A stretch of DNA of 36,577 nucleotides from an uncultured Hellea sp. GTDB lineage: Bacteria; Pseudomonadota; Alphaproteobacteria; Caulobacterales; Maricaulaceae. Positions 5,888-12,944 of this stretch are shown piece by piece. Position 1 is the stretch's first letter. Each line of letters opens with the position of its first letter. The notes under the pieces are model-generated. The model was given only the letters and a program-made list of their open reading frames with translations, was not told the origin of the DNA and did not search any database. A program made the translations under genes and the position numbers. The stretch spans positions 1 through 36,577 of the forward strand of contig CAJQGR010000012.1 of NCBI GenBank assembly GCA_905477785.1, written 5' to 3'.

Positions 5888-7163
5888 GTACTTTAGTAAC
5901 TTTTAATGAGATTATTTGATTGCGTTGTTTTTTTATAACTTCAAATCTGTAACCATGATATGAAAATGTTTGATTAACCTCTGGAATAGTTTGTGACTCA
6001 TAAATAACAAGACCTGCTATTGTAACCGCTTCTTCATCTGGGAGCTCCCATCCCATAGCCCTGTTAACATCTCTGACAGTCAAATTTCCGCGTAGGATAG
6101 CACCTCCTTCTTTTAATTTATTTATCCCTGTGATTTCTTCATCATATTCATCTTGGATATCTCCAACAATTTCCTCGAGGATATCTTCGAGTGTTACTAT
6201 TCCCATTAAAGCTCCATATTCGTCAACTACGACTGCAAAATGCTCCCTTTTTTGCTGAAATGCTTTCAGTTGTTTCACAAGTGATGTTGTCTCAGGTACA
6301 AACCAAGTGCTTCGCATTATTTTTCTTGTGTCTATTTCTGAAAGCTCTCCTGCCTCGCTGGATATTGACTTAAGAATATCTTTAACATGTAAAATTCCTA
6401 TAATATTGTCTTGGTCATTTTCATAAAGTGGGACTCGTGAGTGCCCTGAGTTCAGAACTTCTTTAATTATTGTTTCTGAGGGAATATTAATATCAATCAT
6501 GCAAACATTTTTGCGATGAATCATCACCTCTTCAACGTTTAGTTCTCCAATTTCTAAAACCCCATATATCTGATCTCTTGCACGCTTTGCTACCCCCCCT
6601 TCTTCAAGGTGGAGGTCAACAGTTCCCTTTATAGCTTCTTCCGCTGACCAAGATGCTGAATTTGAATTCACTCCAAACAATCTCAACGTACTATTTACAA
6701 TAATTTGTATGAGTAAAACTAATGGAGAAAATATTTTAACAATAAAGTTGATTCGCGTAGCTACTTTCAATGCTAATGTGTCCGGCTGAGATATCGCATA
6801 TGACTTAGGAAGAACTTCTGCAAAGATTAATATTAAGAGTGTCATAACAACTGTTGCACTCATTAGAGCTAATCCGCCACCTCCCAAAATATTAGTAAAA
6901 ATTGCTGTCGTTAAAACTGAAGCTAAAATATTAACAAGATTATTTCCAAGTAATATACCACCAAGTAACCGCTCTCTAGAGAGTAAAAGTTTAGCAACAA
7001 TTATTGCTCTCTTATCTCCATTTTTTTCCAGGTTATGTATGCGAGCTTTTGAAGCAGCTGTTAGTGCAGTTTCGGATCCAGAAAAAAAACTAGATAAGTA
7101 AAGGAGTATTGCTACCACAAAAATCATTATCAAGTTATCGGTACGCAAGATTGATTCAAGCAT
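5880..7163 (-). CDS. CorC/HlyC-family (CNNM-type) transporter-like protein with DUF21 and CBS domains
   Basis: A membrane protein of the CNNM/CorC group linked to Mg2+/divalent-cation transport and resistance. From the ATG at 7163 it is 427 residues: an N-terminal DUF21 membrane domain (about residues 5-190; motif SGSETALTAASKARI is typical), a tandem CBS domain (about 200-325, including SGHSRVPLY and VVDEYGALMGIVTLEDILEE), an acidic linker and a C-terminal CorC_HlyC domain (about 345-420). An upstream TTG at 7178 would add five residues. I prefer ATG 7163 because AGGA lies 7 nt before it and because it overlaps the aroB stop by 8 nt (ATGCTTGA), the same form of overlap this gene has with the next one. 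Confidence 0.9.
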   Translation of the reverse strand: MLESILRTDNLIMIFVVAILLYLSSFFSGSETALTAASKARIHNLEKNGDKRAIIVAKLLLSRERLLGGILLGNNLVNILASVLTTAIFTNILGGGGLALMSATVVMTLLILIFAEVLPKSYAISQPDTLALKVATRINFIVKIFSPLVLLIQIIVNSTLRLFGVNSNSASWSAEEAIKGTVDLHLEEGGVAKRARDQIYGVLEIGELNVEEVMIHRKNVCMIDINIPSETIIKEVLNSGHSRVPLYENDQDNIIGILHVKDILKSISSEAGELSEIDTRKIMRSTWFVPETTSLVKQLKAFQQKREHFAVVVDEYGALMGIVTLEDILEEIVGDIQDEYDEEITGINKLKEGGAILRGNLTVRDVNRAMGWELPDEEAVTIAGLVIYESQTIPEVNQTFSYHGYRFEVIKKQRNQIISLKVTKVHD

Positions 7164-8262
7164 TTTTCTGTCCTGCAAGTTGGCTAAGGTATTCTAGCAA
7201 ACTAACTTTTGACGTCGACTTTTGGATAAAGGCGTCGCCTATTGAGTTTACCATTATAAGAGTTATGTTTCCACCATCATTCTTTTTATCTTGCTGCATG
7301 AAGCTTAAAAATTTATTTGAATTTTTAAGCAGTGGGATAATATCTTTTATTGATGTCAAGCCAAGTGCTTGAAAATGTGCTTTTACTCTTTTGACATCTT
7401 TAGCACTACATAAATTTTCTTTTAAGCTAAACTCAAAAGCCATTTCCATCCCCGCGCTAACCGCTTCCCCGTGTAACAAGTCTCCTGATTTCATTGCCTC
7501 AACTTCTAGAGCATGAGCAAAGGTGTGTCCTAAGTTAAGCAGCGCACGTTTGCCAGTTTCTCTTTCATCTTCTGCTACAATTCTAGCTTTAGTTTTACAA
7601 GATAGCTCTATAGCTTTTTCTAGTGTGTTTGGATCACAAGATAAGACTTTTTTTCCATTTTTTTCAAGCCAGTTAAAAAAATCATAATTTCCAAGAAGTG
7701 CATATTTGACTATTTCAGAGTACCCTGCCTTTAGTTCTCTTTTAGGCAATGTTTTTAGAACATTTGTATCAGACAAAACAAGCTTAGGCTGATAAAATGA
7801 ACCTACTAAGTTTTTACCATATTTATTGTTTATGGCAGTTTTCCCCCCGACAGAACTGTCAACCTGCGAAAGTAAAGTAGTAGGGATCTGAATGAATTTA
7901 CATCCACGCTTAAAAATACTAGCCGCAAATCCAGTAAGGTCGCCAATAACCCCACCTCCAAATGCTATCAAAGTATCATTTCTTTCGAAACCTTTGTCGA
8001 ATAATGAATTTAAAATTTTTTGAAGACCTTCAAAGCTCTTTTGTGCCTCTCCAGCGGGGCAGACTATAATATGAACTTCGAACCCTATAAGAGCAGACTC
8101 GAGTTGTTTGCCATGAAGCCTATAAACATTTTCATCTGTTACTATTGCAATTTTTTTTCCTGAAATCCTTTGTGAAATAAAATTACCCGCCTCAGAAAGG
8201 AGGTCCTCTTTTATGATGATTTCATAACTTCGAAGGCCAAGATCTACATTTACTATAGTCAT
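7156..8262 (-). CDS. aroB: 3-dehydroquinate synthase
   Basis: Second step of the shikimate pathway: cyclises DAHP to 3-dehydroquinate using NAD+ and a divalent metal, in the cytoplasm. The 368-residue protein shows the NAD-binding GGGVIGD (102-108), the PTTLLSQVDSSVGGK signature (127-141) and metal ligands Glu183 (GYSEIVKYA), His246 (LGHTFAHALE) and His264 (LLHGEAVSAGM), equivalent to the usual Glu/His/His set. Length is normal. Its ATG shares one base with the aroK stop (TAATG), the standard aroK-aroB pairing, and its stop overlaps the CorC-like gene. Confidence 0.97.
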   Translation of the reverse strand: MTIVNVDLGLRSYEIIIKEDLLSEAGNFISQRISGKKIAIVTDENVYRLHGKQLESALIGFEVHIIVCPAGEAQKSFEGLQKILNSLFDKGFERNDTLIAFGGGVIGDLTGFAASIFKRGCKFIQIPTTLLSQVDSSVGGKTAINNKYGKNLVGSFYQPKLVLSDTNVLKTLPKRELKAGYSEIVKYALLGNYDFFNWLEKNGKKVLSCDPNTLEKAIELSCKTKARIVAEDERETGKRALLNLGHTFAHALEVEAMKSGDLLHGEAVSAGMEMAFEFSLKENLCSAKDVKRVKAHFQALGLTSIKDIIPLLKNSNKFLSFMQQDKKNDGGNITLIMVNSIGDAFIQKSTSKVSLLEYLSQLAGQKNA

Positions 8263-8801
8263 TAATTATTACTCTGATATTTTTTTATTGCGTGTATTAT
8301 TTTATTACTAATAGAGAATTGTTCATCATTATCAATTGTAACCGTTATATGTGATTTTTTATATATAGGGTGCCTTATTTTTATAAGTTCCTTAATCTTT
8401 GCTTCAGGATTATTAACTTGCAAAAGAGGTCTTTTATCATAATTTTTACTAACGCGATTCATAATAGTATTTAAGTCAGCTTTTAGCCATATTGTTAATG
8501 CTCTGCCATTTAAAATTTCATGTGTTTCTTCTTGTATATAAGCACCCCCACCAGTTGCTAATACTATAGATTTTTTAGTTAATAGCCTCTCTATAACGAG
8601 TCGTTCTCCTTTCCTAAATTCCTTTTCACCATAATCTTTAAAGTAGCCGCTTATTGTTCTTCCTGATGCTTTTTCAATTTCGTAGTCAGAGTCATAAAAC
8701 TCTCTATTGAGAATTTTAGCTAGTTGTTTCCCTGTTGTAGTTTTTCCAACACCCATCAGCCCGACAAGTGCTATTGAGCTGTTTGTAAAGTTTTTACTAA
8801 T
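8262..8801 (-). CDS. aroK: Shikimate kinase, probable non-AUG (ATT) start
   Basis: Phosphorylates shikimate with ATP, the step after shikimate dehydrogenase. Seen: P-loop GLMGVGKT, shikimate-binding DSDYEIE, FRKGE, ATGGGAY and the lid-region RPLL. The first ATG (8756) codes for the Met inside the P-loop, so it cannot be the true start: the in-frame sequence upstream reads NSSIALVGLM, a correct first beta-strand for the family. No ATG, GTG or TTG exists in any frame between that ATG and the in-frame stop at 8853-8855. The best candidate is ATT at 8799-8801 with AAGGA 8 nt upstream, giving 179 residues with the P-loop at 14-21, the normal family length. ATA or ATC starts nearby, or an assembly error, remain possible. 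The gene is certain, the start is not. Confidence 0.9.
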   Translation of the reverse strand: MSKNFTNSSIALVGLMGVGKTTTGKQLAKILNREFYDSDYEIEKASGRTISGYFKDYGEKEFRKGERLVIERLLTKKSIVLATGGGAYIQEETHEILNGRALTIWLKADLNTIMNRVSKNYDKRPLLQVNNPEAKIKELIKIRHPIYKKSHITVTIDNDEQFSISNKIIHAIKKYQSNN

Positions 8802-8809
8802 TGAACTAT

Positions 8810-8814
8810 TCCTT
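8810..8814 (-). promoter_or_regulatory. Ribosome binding site proposed for aroK
   Basis: On the minus strand AAGGA lies 8 nt before the ATT codon at 8801-8799, good Shine-Dalgarno spacing. It is the only strong purine motif between the in-frame upstream stop (8853-8855) and the aroK P-loop, and it decides the proposed non-AUG start. Confidence 0.5.
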
Positions 8815-8883
8815 ATTATCTTACTTTTCTTATATTTATATCTGATAGTGTATTAAATATAGGTTTTTAATATGAGGAAAAAG

Positions 8884-8910
8884 TAACGTTTGCTCAACAC
8901 TTAAACGTTA
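8884..8910. promoter_or_regulatory. Perfect 8-bp inverted repeat, candidate operator
   Basis: TAACGTTT (8884-8891) and AAACGTTA (8903-8910) are exact reverse complements separated by 11 nt, so the half-site centres are 19 nt apart, about two helical turns. The repeat lies in the divergent region between aroK and the small membrane-protein gene at 8942, just upstream of a TATAAT sequence (8921-8926). That position suits a dimeric repressor or activator. The regulator is unknown, and in AT-rich DNA a chance occurrence cannot be excluded. Confidence 0.4.
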
Positions 8911-8941: not shown

Positions 8942-9082
8942 ATGAAAAAATTATTTATTGTCAGTTTTACTTTAGTTTTATTCTTGTTTGGACTCACATG
9001 GTGGCTTCTTTCGAGTGCATCTAATGAAAATGCACCGCAAGATCTAAAAGTAATTGAATTGCCGGATAATTACGAAAAATAA
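8942..9082 (+). CDS. Small single-pass membrane protein, unknown function (46 aa)
   Basis: ATG at 8942 has a good Shine-Dalgarno (AAAGG, 7 nt spacing) and opens a 46-codon frame starting MKKLFIVSFTLVLFLFGLTW and ending in the hydrophilic tail VIELPDNYEK. Residues 3-24 form one strongly hydrophobic segment with a positive N-terminus, fitting either a membrane anchor with a short periplasmic tail or a signal-anchor peptide. I recognise no family. The stop is 1 nt from the start of the next gene, so the two are almost certainly translated from one message and may work together. Despite its size, the start context and tight coupling make it a credible gene. Confidence 0.65.
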   Translation: MKKLFIVSFTLVLFLFGLTWWLLSSASNENAPQDLKVIELPDNYEK

Positions 9083-9083
9083 T

Positions 9084-10640
9084 ATGAAATATTTAATATC
9101 ATTAATATTTTTCTTTTTTCAGTACCCAGTTTTCGCAGAAAATATAGAGGTTTTAGATTTAGAAACAGCCCGTATTTATGACCCTGGTGTAATAGACGCT
9201 ATAACTGGCGTTTTCGATGCTAATCTTTGGAAGGGCACCTCAACATCTACAGCTGTAGATTTAATTAATAAAATTCCGACAACGACTTCAAGTAAAGTGG
9301 GAGGGAAACTTATAAGAGCTACGATATTGGCCGGCGGAATGCCCCCAGAGGGGGAAAGAAAAAAATATGTTAGTGCTCGTTTAAGGTATGTAATGAAAAT
9401 GCAAGATAATGATGCTCTCAAAACTTTAATGAAAGGTTATTCAGATTATGTTCATTTACCTAAAAATAGAGTTGAGTATGCTTTAGGAAGTGATGACATT
9501 GAGTCTGCTTGTGATATATCTGATAATTTAGGTAACAATAGGAGTTTACCTTATTGGATAAAGATTAGAGTTTTTTGTAATATTAGTCGTGATGAGTTAG
9601 CTGCTGCTGAATTAGCTGTCGAATTACTTCAAAGTATGGGGCATGAAGATAGACTATTTTACGAATTTATCGATTTCTTTTTAGGTAACTCTGACGAAAT
9701 ACCAAAAATCACTAATAACATTGACCCTTTGGTAAATGCAATGCAATCGAAGGCTATAAATTTTGATACTCAGGCATTAATAACTGAAGCTAAAAACAAT
9801 AAACTGGGTTTGAAAGATAAAGTAGATTTAATTAACCGGCTACCTAATCAAATAAAATATGATCAAATAGAAGAGCTTTTAATAAATGGCATTGTGAACG
9901 ATAGAAATATACAATTTAAGAGGATACCAACCTATAACCCGGAGCTTCTCATTAATGATAGTTTTGATAAGGGTTCAAGTGAAAAACTAGATACGATAGA
10001 AAATGAAGACTTATTTTCTGCAAAAATATTAGCTACTATATTGAATAAAGCAGATACACACTTATCTTTTTCCCGCATTGTTAAAGCCCTTGAAACTCAT
10101 TTGGATAATGTCACTTCTGATCAAATTGAAATCCCGGATATTAATATTTTCGTACGCGCAAGCCTAGAGAGGAAAGACTACACTTTATTGCGTGAGCTCT
10201 ATGAAAAATTACCTAATGGAAAGCAAAAAACTAAAATCAGGCTTATTATGGCTATATTAGATAATACTTACCTTTTCGATAGTTTTTTAACAAATTTAGA
10301 AGCTAGTTTTCCAAATATAGAGTTACAGTATTTTCTTTCAGATAGAGACCTTTTCATATTATCCTCTTTAAGAGTTAGCTCTTCTTTACCTTTTTTAAAA
10401 GCAATGGAAGGTAAAGACGAAGGATTTGGGTTTACAGTCAAGGCAGGTGATATGCTTTTGCTTAAAACTACTCTTAGGCACTCTTCTGTTGCGGAAACTG
10501 CATTGCGCGCGGCGATCATTCTTGAAAATAGTCCTCTCAACGATTCTAGTATTTATAATATTATAGATGTTTTGATAAGTGCTGGATTAATCGAGTTCGC
10601 TAAAGATATCGCCATTGAGGATTTTGCTAGACGACTATGA
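9084..10640 (+). CDS. Exported alpha-helical protein of unknown function upstream of xerD
   Basis: 518 residues if started at ATG 9084, which gives a classical signal peptide: MKYLIS, a hydrophobic phenylalanine-rich core and FQYPVFA|EN with likely cleavage after residue 18. An in-frame ATG at 9054 exists but would overlap the 46-aa gene and bury the signal peptide, so I reject it. The mature protein is charged and looks mostly helical, with short repeated helix-turn-helix-like stretches, reminiscent of TPR/HEAT-type superhelices; no catalytic motif stands out. A hypothetical protein at this position, before xerD and near aroK, is familiar from alphaproteobacteria, but I know of no assigned function. 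Its stop overlaps the xerD start by 4 nt (ATGA). Confidence 0.8.
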   Translation: MKYLISLIFFFFQYPVFAENIEVLDLETARIYDPGVIDAITGVFDANLWKGTSTSTAVDLINKIPTTTSSKVGGKLIRATILAGGMPPEGERKKYVSARLRYVMKMQDNDALKTLMKGYSDYVHLPKNRVEYALGSDDIESACDISDNLGNNRSLPYWIKIRVFCNISRDELAAAELAVELLQSMGHEDRLFYEFIDFFLGNSDEIPKITNNIDPLVNAMQSKAINFDTQALITEAKNNKLGLKDKVDLINRLPNQIKYDQIEELLINGIVNDRNIQFKRIPTYNPELLINDSFDKGSSEKLDTIENEDLFSAKILATILNKADTHLSFSRIVKALETHLDNVTSDQIEIPDINIFVRASLERKDYTLLRELYEKLPNGKQKTKIRLIMAILDNTYLFDSFLTNLEASFPNIELQYFLSDRDLFILSSLRVSSSLPFLKAMEGKDEGFGFTVKAGDMLLLKTTLRHSSVAETALRAAIILENSPLNDSSIYNIIDVLISAGLIEFAKDIAIEDFARRL

Positions 10641-11552: not shown

Positions 11553-11831
11553 ATGCCAAAAAAAAGACAATATCACTCAGATCTCGAAGAAGACCTTAAA
11601 GCTTTTTTACGTGAATTATGTGATGATTGGGACTTTTGCGCAGAAATTAAAGTTAAGGATTTACTCCTTAACAAATATAAAACTATAACGCCAAAAATAT
11701 TTTCTGATACTTTAATAATAGCTGAGGGTCTGGATCTCAAAGCTGCTCATCACTGGCAAAGGAGGCTGAAAAGACGATTTGTACAGCGCTATGGTAACGA
11801 AGTGAACGAAAGAATTTGGAGAGATTGGTAG
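11553..11831 (+). CDS. Hypothetical protein, 92 aa, between xerD and accA
   Basis: A short charged cytoplasmic protein starting MPKKRQYHSDLEEDLKAFL, with an acidic patch (ELCDDWDFCAE), a hydrophobic centre and a basic, aromatic C-terminus (WQRRLKRRFVQRYGNEV, ending IWRDW). No signal peptide or membrane segment is visible and I recognise no family. The Trp/Arg-rich tail could contact nucleic acid or another protein, which is only inference. It follows the xerD stop by 4 nt, so it is very probably co-transcribed and may be coupled to XerD production. A 168-bp gap separates it from accA. Confidence 0.75.
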   Translation: MPKKRQYHSDLEEDLKAFLRELCDDWDFCAEIKVKDLLLNKYKTITPKIFSDTLIIAEGLDLKAAHHWQRRLKRRFVQRYGNEVNERIWRDW

Positions 11832-11999
11832 CCTAAATAAGATTTTTAAAAATAAAGTAAAGAGGGCTATTAAGAATCATAAAAAAACTTTTAGATATAG
11901 ACTTAATACTGTAGGTTACTCATGATTATTATTTCAGTGATAGAAAGCGCAAAGAAATTTCATTGATATAACAGTTTTTAAGATTGGATGAAGTATAGT

Positions 12000-12944
12000 A
12001 TGGCACGCACTTACCTTGATTTCGAACGTAGTATTGCTGAACTTGATAGTAAAATAGAAGAGATGATTCAAAAAAAAGGTCTTCAAGATCAGAATGTATC
12101 TGATTTAAAGGAAAAGTCTAAACTACAACTTAAATCTTTATACTCAAAAATAAGTGCTTGGGAAAAAACTCAAGTGGCCCGTCATCCCTCTAGGCCACAT
12201 TTTAGTGAGTATATTAATAGTTTCGTAACCAGCTACACGCCCTTATCTGGCGATAGAAAGTTTGGAGATGATTGCGCTTTATTGGGAGGGCTAGGAAAAA
12301 TTCAAGGTAGAAGCGTATTAGTTATGGGGCATGAAAAAGGTAAAGATACTGAAACCCGACTAAAGCATAATTTTGGAATGGCTCAACCAGAGGGTTACCG
12401 CAAAGCTGTACGATTTATGGAGCTTGCTGAAAAGTTCAACGTGCCAATTATTAGCTTTATTGATACTGCAGGAGCTTACCCAGGAAGAGGTGCGGAGGAG
12501 CGTGGTCAAGCAGAAGCTATAGCGCGCAGTATTGATAAAGGTTTATCAGTTCGTGTTCCTTTTGTTTCTATAATATCTGGTGAAGGCGGGTCCGGTGGTG
12601 CTGTAGCAATAGCAACAGCGGACACTGTTATGATGTTAGAGCATTCTATTTACTCTGTGATTTCCCCTGAAGGCTGCGCATCTATACTCTGGAGAGACGG
12701 TGGTCGCGCTAAAGATGCGGCAAAAGCGATGAAAATTACAGCTCAAAACCTAAAGCGATTAGGGGTGATTGATAAAATTATTAAAGAGCCAATTGGCGGT
12801 GCACATCGATCCTCTAAGGAAATGATAAAATCTCTTGAGACAGCTATAGTTAAGTCTTTAGATACTCTCTCTAAAATGGATACTGCCGAACTTGTAAGGC
12901 AACGTAGAGATAAGTTTTTGAATATTGGTAGATCATTATTATAA
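12000..12944 (+). CDS. accA: Acetyl-CoA carboxylase carboxyltransferase subunit alpha
   Basis: AccA pairs with AccD to move the carboxyl group from carboxybiotin to acetyl-CoA, giving malonyl-CoA for fatty-acid synthesis. The protein begins MARTYLDFERSIAELDSKIE, the usual alphaproteobacterial AccA start, and carries the carboxyltransferase signatures FIDTAGAYPGRGAEERGQ and SIISGEGGSGGAVAIA plus YSVISPEGCASILWRD. From ATG 12000 it is 314 residues; an in-frame ATG at 11988 adds MKYS, but family N-termini favour the later one. The 168 bp before it contain no convincing gene and may hold its own promoter. A strong hairpin terminator follows directly after the stop. Confidence 0.96.
   Translation: MARTYLDFERSIAELDSKIEEMIQKKGLQDQNVSDLKEKSKLQLKSLYSKISAWEKTQVARHPSRPHFSEYINSFVTSYTPLSGDRKFGDDCALLGGLGKIQGRSVLVMGHEKGKDTETRLKHNFGMAQPEGYRKAVRFMELAEKFNVPIISFIDTAGAYPGRGAEERGQAEAIARSIDKGLSVRVPFVSIISGEGGSGGAVAIATADTVMMLEHSIYSVISPEGCASILWRDGGRAKDAAKAMKITAQNLKRLGVIDKIIKEPIGGAHRSSKEMIKSLETAIVKSLDTLSKMDTAELVRQRRDKFLNIGRSLL

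Follow-up and report, generated by a model that had tools for sequence, protein, structure and literature searches.

We conclude that the shikimate kinase gene (aroK) of an uncultured Hellea-like bacterium probably starts at an AUU codon that arose once from ATG and has been kept in three species, and that initiation at this codon is probably weak (we place the probability of this reading at roughly 0.85). The gene lies in the 36,577-nucleotide stretch that was analysed as a whole (the ‘window’), which corresponds to contig C12 of a 1.83 Mb draft assembly (G000; 92 contigs, 97% complete). The nearest relatives of this source genome are metagenome-assembled genomes (MAGs) labelled Hellea sp. 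(Alphaproteobacteria, Maricaulales, Robiginitomaculaceae).

The aroK frame on the minus strand is bounded upstream by an in-frame TAA (8853–8855) and runs from stop to stop over 196 codons (8852–8262; YTIRYKYKKSKIIRNSSISKNFTNSSIALVGLMGVGKT...). Its product matches NCBIfam PRK13946 (208 bits, above the cut-off of 186) and Pfam SKI, and contains an intact GxxGxGKT P-loop (GLMGVGKT). As the first-pass annotation had claimed, none of the codons ATG, GTG and TTG occurs in frame from the upstream stop (8855–8853) up to the first ATG of the gene (8756–8754), which encodes the methionine within the P-loop. The further claim that these triplets are lacking in all frames was wrong: an out-of-frame TTG is present at 8767–8765, but is irrelevant as a start because TGA comes three codons later (TTG TCG GGC TGA) and terminates it at once. 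The P-loop ATG is itself unworkable as a start, since it corresponds to residue 16 and a protein beginning there would lose strand 1; the argument that AroK must begin earlier is further borne out by solved shikimate kinases, which mostly align from residues 7–11. The candidate start is an ATT (8799–8801) preceded at a distance of 8 nt by a Shine-Dalgarno (SD) sequence, AAGGA (8810–8814). Translation from that ATT to the TAA at 8264–8262 would give a protein of 179 codons (8262–8801), with the predicted N-terminus (M)SKNFTNSSIALVGLMGVGK. The positions initially assigned to the ATT, the AAGGA and its spacer, the upstream stop and the P-loop ATG were all found to be correct.

We compared aroK across ten genomes of the genus (G000–G009), all of which carry the gene, and found that the relatives align over its entire length. 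Two of them, G002 (JABGVR010000252.1) and G007 (JAQXEH010000066.1), encode AroK proteins with 83% identity to that of the source and display the same ATT and SD, with predicted N-termini of SEIFIKYPIALVGLMGVGK and SEIFIKHPIALVGLMGVGK; a 20-nt block spanning both elements (TAAGGAATAGTTCAATTAGT) is invariant in all three species. In the remaining seven species the aligned position is occupied by ATG-AGC, again with AAGGA 8 nt upstream, a distance shared by 10/10 species. At 20 further loci read from the family, a canonical start is present upstream of the P-loop in every case. The three ATT genes form one clade on a single branch of the AroK protein tree (support 100/100), which fits a single replacement of ATG by ATT; that clade sits on a long branch. 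The first-pass annotation had specified beforehand that its proposal would fail if relatives displayed a clear ATG at the same place and did not conserve the ATT and AAGGA. The proposal survived the alignment of close relatives upstream of aroK: more distant members of the genus do display a clear ATG, as the first part envisaged, but the nearest two have kept both the ATT and the AAGGA. Initiation of aroK at the ATT is in our view strongly supported by these alignments.

The invariant block stands out from its surroundings. In the leader between the promoter and the SD, 28 of 53 positions are invariant among the three ATT species, and an invariant run of 20 nt arose in 15 of 20,000 trials of column shuffling, which supports the assignment of a putative translation start site to the ATT. 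The conserved T of the ATT is no proof of selection for AUU, because 16 of the 17 isoleucine codons shared by the three aroK genes are also identical. An in-frame GTG is found far upstream in G007, within unconserved leader sequence.

The anti-SD region at the 16S end of the source genome itself reads CCTCCTTTCT. The duplex that it forms with the aroK SD has a calculated energy of −5.1 kcal/mol, versus −5.9 to −6.9 kcal/mol in the seven ATG relatives. A compensating, stronger SD, which the apparently longer TAAGGA had seemed to offer, was therefore rejected: the T is left unpaired by this 16S end, the ATG species form the more stable duplex, and the longer or stronger pairing of the extended SDs described in S. 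aureus is not seen at aroK. Further upstream, a TTGAGC (8892–8897) and a CATATT (8869–8874), separated by 17 nt, are present on the minus strand in each of the ten species compared and probably represent the −35 and −10 elements; this promoter call relies on their conservation, because a generic promoter scan of the aroK upstream region yielded nothing above threshold. A search of the leader against Rfam for known RNA elements yielded no matches.

Two additional reading frames lie beyond this region on the plus strand. A small divergent ORF (8942–9082; MKKLFIVSFTLVLFLFGLTWWLLSS...) shares a 140-bp intergenic region with aroK; it produced no matches in a Pfam search, and most of the genus has an ATG close to the position of its own. 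Between it and a XerC/XerD-type recombinase is a gene for a secreted-looking protein (9084–10640; 69% identity in G007) that was without matches in Pfam and NCBIfam searches and probably begins at the ATG at 9084 rather than at a TTG at 9054.

The aroK gene is intact and under purifying selection, with dN values of 0.09–0.10 and dS values of 0.73–0.76 against G002 and G007 (dN/dS ∼0.13). It is very probably the sole shikimate kinase gene of the source genome, in which the only other hit was weak and far below family cut-offs. Given the lack of a second convincing kinase and the retention of aroB, aroC and aroA, the cell would appear to need aroK. A decaying aromatic pathway was ruled out by the presence of the same three genes in G000 and of aroC in all three ATT species. 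The downstream gene, aroB (3-dehydroquinate synthase; 7156–8262, minus strand; TIGR01357, 376 bits), overlaps aroK, with the stop of one and the start of the other combined as TAATG in the source and as ATGA in G002 and G007. Translational coupling of the pair is possible, and because of this overlap aroB may share any limit on the translation of aroK.

In the mechanism that we propose, a G-to-T change would have turned ATG into ATT once, in the ancestor of three AT-rich Hellea-like species, and the codon would have been retained since. The initiator tRNA would read the AUU (8801–8799) under the conserved AAGGA, pairing with it through a third-position mismatch of a kind expected to be disfavoured by IF3. 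Judging from other AUU starts, initiation of aroK would be weak and IF3-disfavoured, such that the AUU would keep aroK output at a fixed low setting, one that probably extends to aroB through the stop/start overlap. Whether the cell makes regulatory use of such a brake is a separate matter, and one that we regard as doubtful; the idea comes from analogy, and no sequence feature singles out regulation at aroK. The suggestion in the first-pass annotation that shikimate output may depend on the fidelity of initiation is plausible on the same analogy.

AUU starts are already known elsewhere. The pcnB gene of E. coli starts at AUU and, like aroK, does not encode IF3, but its product is an unrelated RNA-processing enzyme. 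Another case, infC, starts at AUU in E. coli and at AUC in Streptomyces, and is subject to autoregulation by IF3 (PMC5472188). In a purified system, a smaller share of the AUU/CAU product began at the proper start once IF3 was added (PMC10158994). The E. coli infC and aroK are alike in having an AUU under an SD and an output that IF3 is expected to disfavour, but infC encodes IF3, so that its start closes a feedback loop, whereas the metabolic enzyme encoded by aroK is not known to be connected with that factor. The sigR gene of Streptomyces coelicolor resembles aroK in that it is the first of two overlapping genes and starts at a non-canonical codon; it differs in that the codon is GTC, the product is a sigma factor, and both repression by IF3 and the need for a weak start were shown experimentally (PMC5472188). 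Conserved non-canonical starts outside infC are also found in S. aureus, at cvfC1 (AUU) and at ccpN and citZ (AUA), of which citZ, like aroK, encodes a metabolic enzyme and cvfC1, like aroK, heads an operon and has an AUU start (PMC13009471). These starts are accompanied by extended SDs, were mapped by ribosome profiling, and gave a measured output of ∼10% of that from AUG in poor medium, unlike the aroK start, which is predicted from sequence comparison (PMC13009471). The replacement of AUG by AUU belongs to a class of evolutionary event recorded by Belinky et al., who found AUU at 1 of 61,358 ancestral AUG starts, a figure that is probably an undercount because it is annotation-based (PMC5622118). 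Among the papers searched, none combined shikimate kinase, AUU and start codon.

Other apparent AUN starts were sought in a sample of 640 kb of G000 and 843 kb of G007. It yielded 213 pairs of orthologous frames, and in 180 of these the alignment covered 120 residues or more. When the candidates were read, no canonical start that could serve in both genomes was seen for aroK, for a UPF0262 gene or for a DUF2161 gene; this count of three is rough because the screen covered a sample and was assessed in part by eye. In the UPF0262 gene (G000 contig C3, locus L053, 15795–16269, minus strand), a conserved DHYIVELNID is preceded at a distance of a few codons by an ATG in each of the six copies read from the ATG side of the genus. 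In G000, G002 and G007 that ATG is lost and an ATC is found behind a conserved AAAGAG (in G000 immediately after a stop codon), making ATC the probable start in this sub-clade; the ATC itself is absent from G009 and G005. The DUF2161 gene (G000 contig C8, locus L094, ∼11742–12444, minus strand), which encodes a putative PD-(D/E)XK phosphodiesterase according to Pfam, has no canonical start in most of the species. There, ATC is the probable initiation codon: it appears as the start in G001, G004 and G006, and takes the form ATT-ATC in the ATT sub-clade. Two species, G005 and G009, have GTG instead. In G001–G009, the first codon of infC is ATC (the copy in G000 is cut by the contig end), consistent with the known autoregulation of IF3. 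That these genes might form a regulon of AUN starts (AUC at infC and DUF2161, joined in the AT-rich sub-clade by AUU at aroK and AUC at UPF0262), through which IF3 would set aromatic-pathway output alongside its own level, strikes us as improbable.

Several other explanations of the ATT can be set against this background, two of which would move or remove the start itself. A sequencing or assembly error, conceivable for a contig of a 92-contig draft, was excluded by the occurrence of the same ATT in two further, independent MAGs from other projects, and a decaying pseudogene is at odds with the intact frame, the purifying selection and the presence of the pathway; we assign this pair of possibilities a negligible weight, and on the alignments regard the ATT as a lineage-specific replacement of ATG and not an error. 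Initiation at a different non-canonical codon is very unlikely. Upstream alternatives exist in the form of in-frame ATA codons before the SD in the source (AAG ATA ATA AGG) and a CTG in G002 and G007, but no upstream codon is common to all three ATT species and none is preceded by the conserved SD, while a downstream start at the ATA of SIALVG would cost part of strand 1. The ATG of the relatives, furthermore, aligns with the ATT.

The remaining explanations accept initiation at the ATT and differ over why it is there. We lean slightly towards the ATT being a relic, in which ATG decayed under AT-biased mutation to a codon that still initiates but is neutral or slightly harmful and has no regulatory role, being tolerated because the demand for shikimate kinase is low. 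The ATT species have small genomes and a GC content of ∼37% (versus 48–52% at the loci of the ATG species), they occupy a long branch, and their UPF0262 gene has also lost its ATG; in addition, the aroK SD is no stronger than in the ATG species, and neither the initiator tRNA nor IF3 displays a telling change. Relaxed decoding machinery was rejected as a cause on the same grounds: one and the same initiator tRNA occurs in all eight genomes that yielded it, two ATT species among them (none was found in G005 or G007), and changes in IF3 are only scattered. Against a relic stand the persistence of the ATT in the source and in two species at a dS of 0.73–0.76 from it, with no reversion to ATG, GTG or TTG, and the general maintenance of AUG starts by purifying selection (PMC5622118). 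The other possibility is that aroK output tracks the level or activity of IF3, as for infC and the Streptomyces sigR. Non-canonical starts are repressed by IF3 elsewhere (PMC5472188; PMC10158994), the ATC of the genus infC suggests an ordinary IF3 feedback loop, and the ATT and its surrounding context are conserved. The absence of regulatory features and of an Rfam element at aroK argues against such control, however, as does the fact that the ATG species run the same operon without an AUU, and we consider it unlikely. Relaxation under AT pressure and IF3-linked control would account equally well for the origin of the ATT.

An AUU start on a metabolic gene, which we regard from the comparative evidence as real and well supported at aroK, is of interest because the replacement of AUG by AUU in such a gene has very rarely been documented. 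It also bears on annotation, since gene callers limited to ATG, GTG and TTG would truncate AroK within its P-loop or miss the gene. The contrast between ATG and ATT inside a single genus, with the SD and its spacing unchanged, represents a natural experiment that bears on what a weak start costs and what it can be used for, to which the further genes with apparent AUC starts in the same genus offer a comparison.
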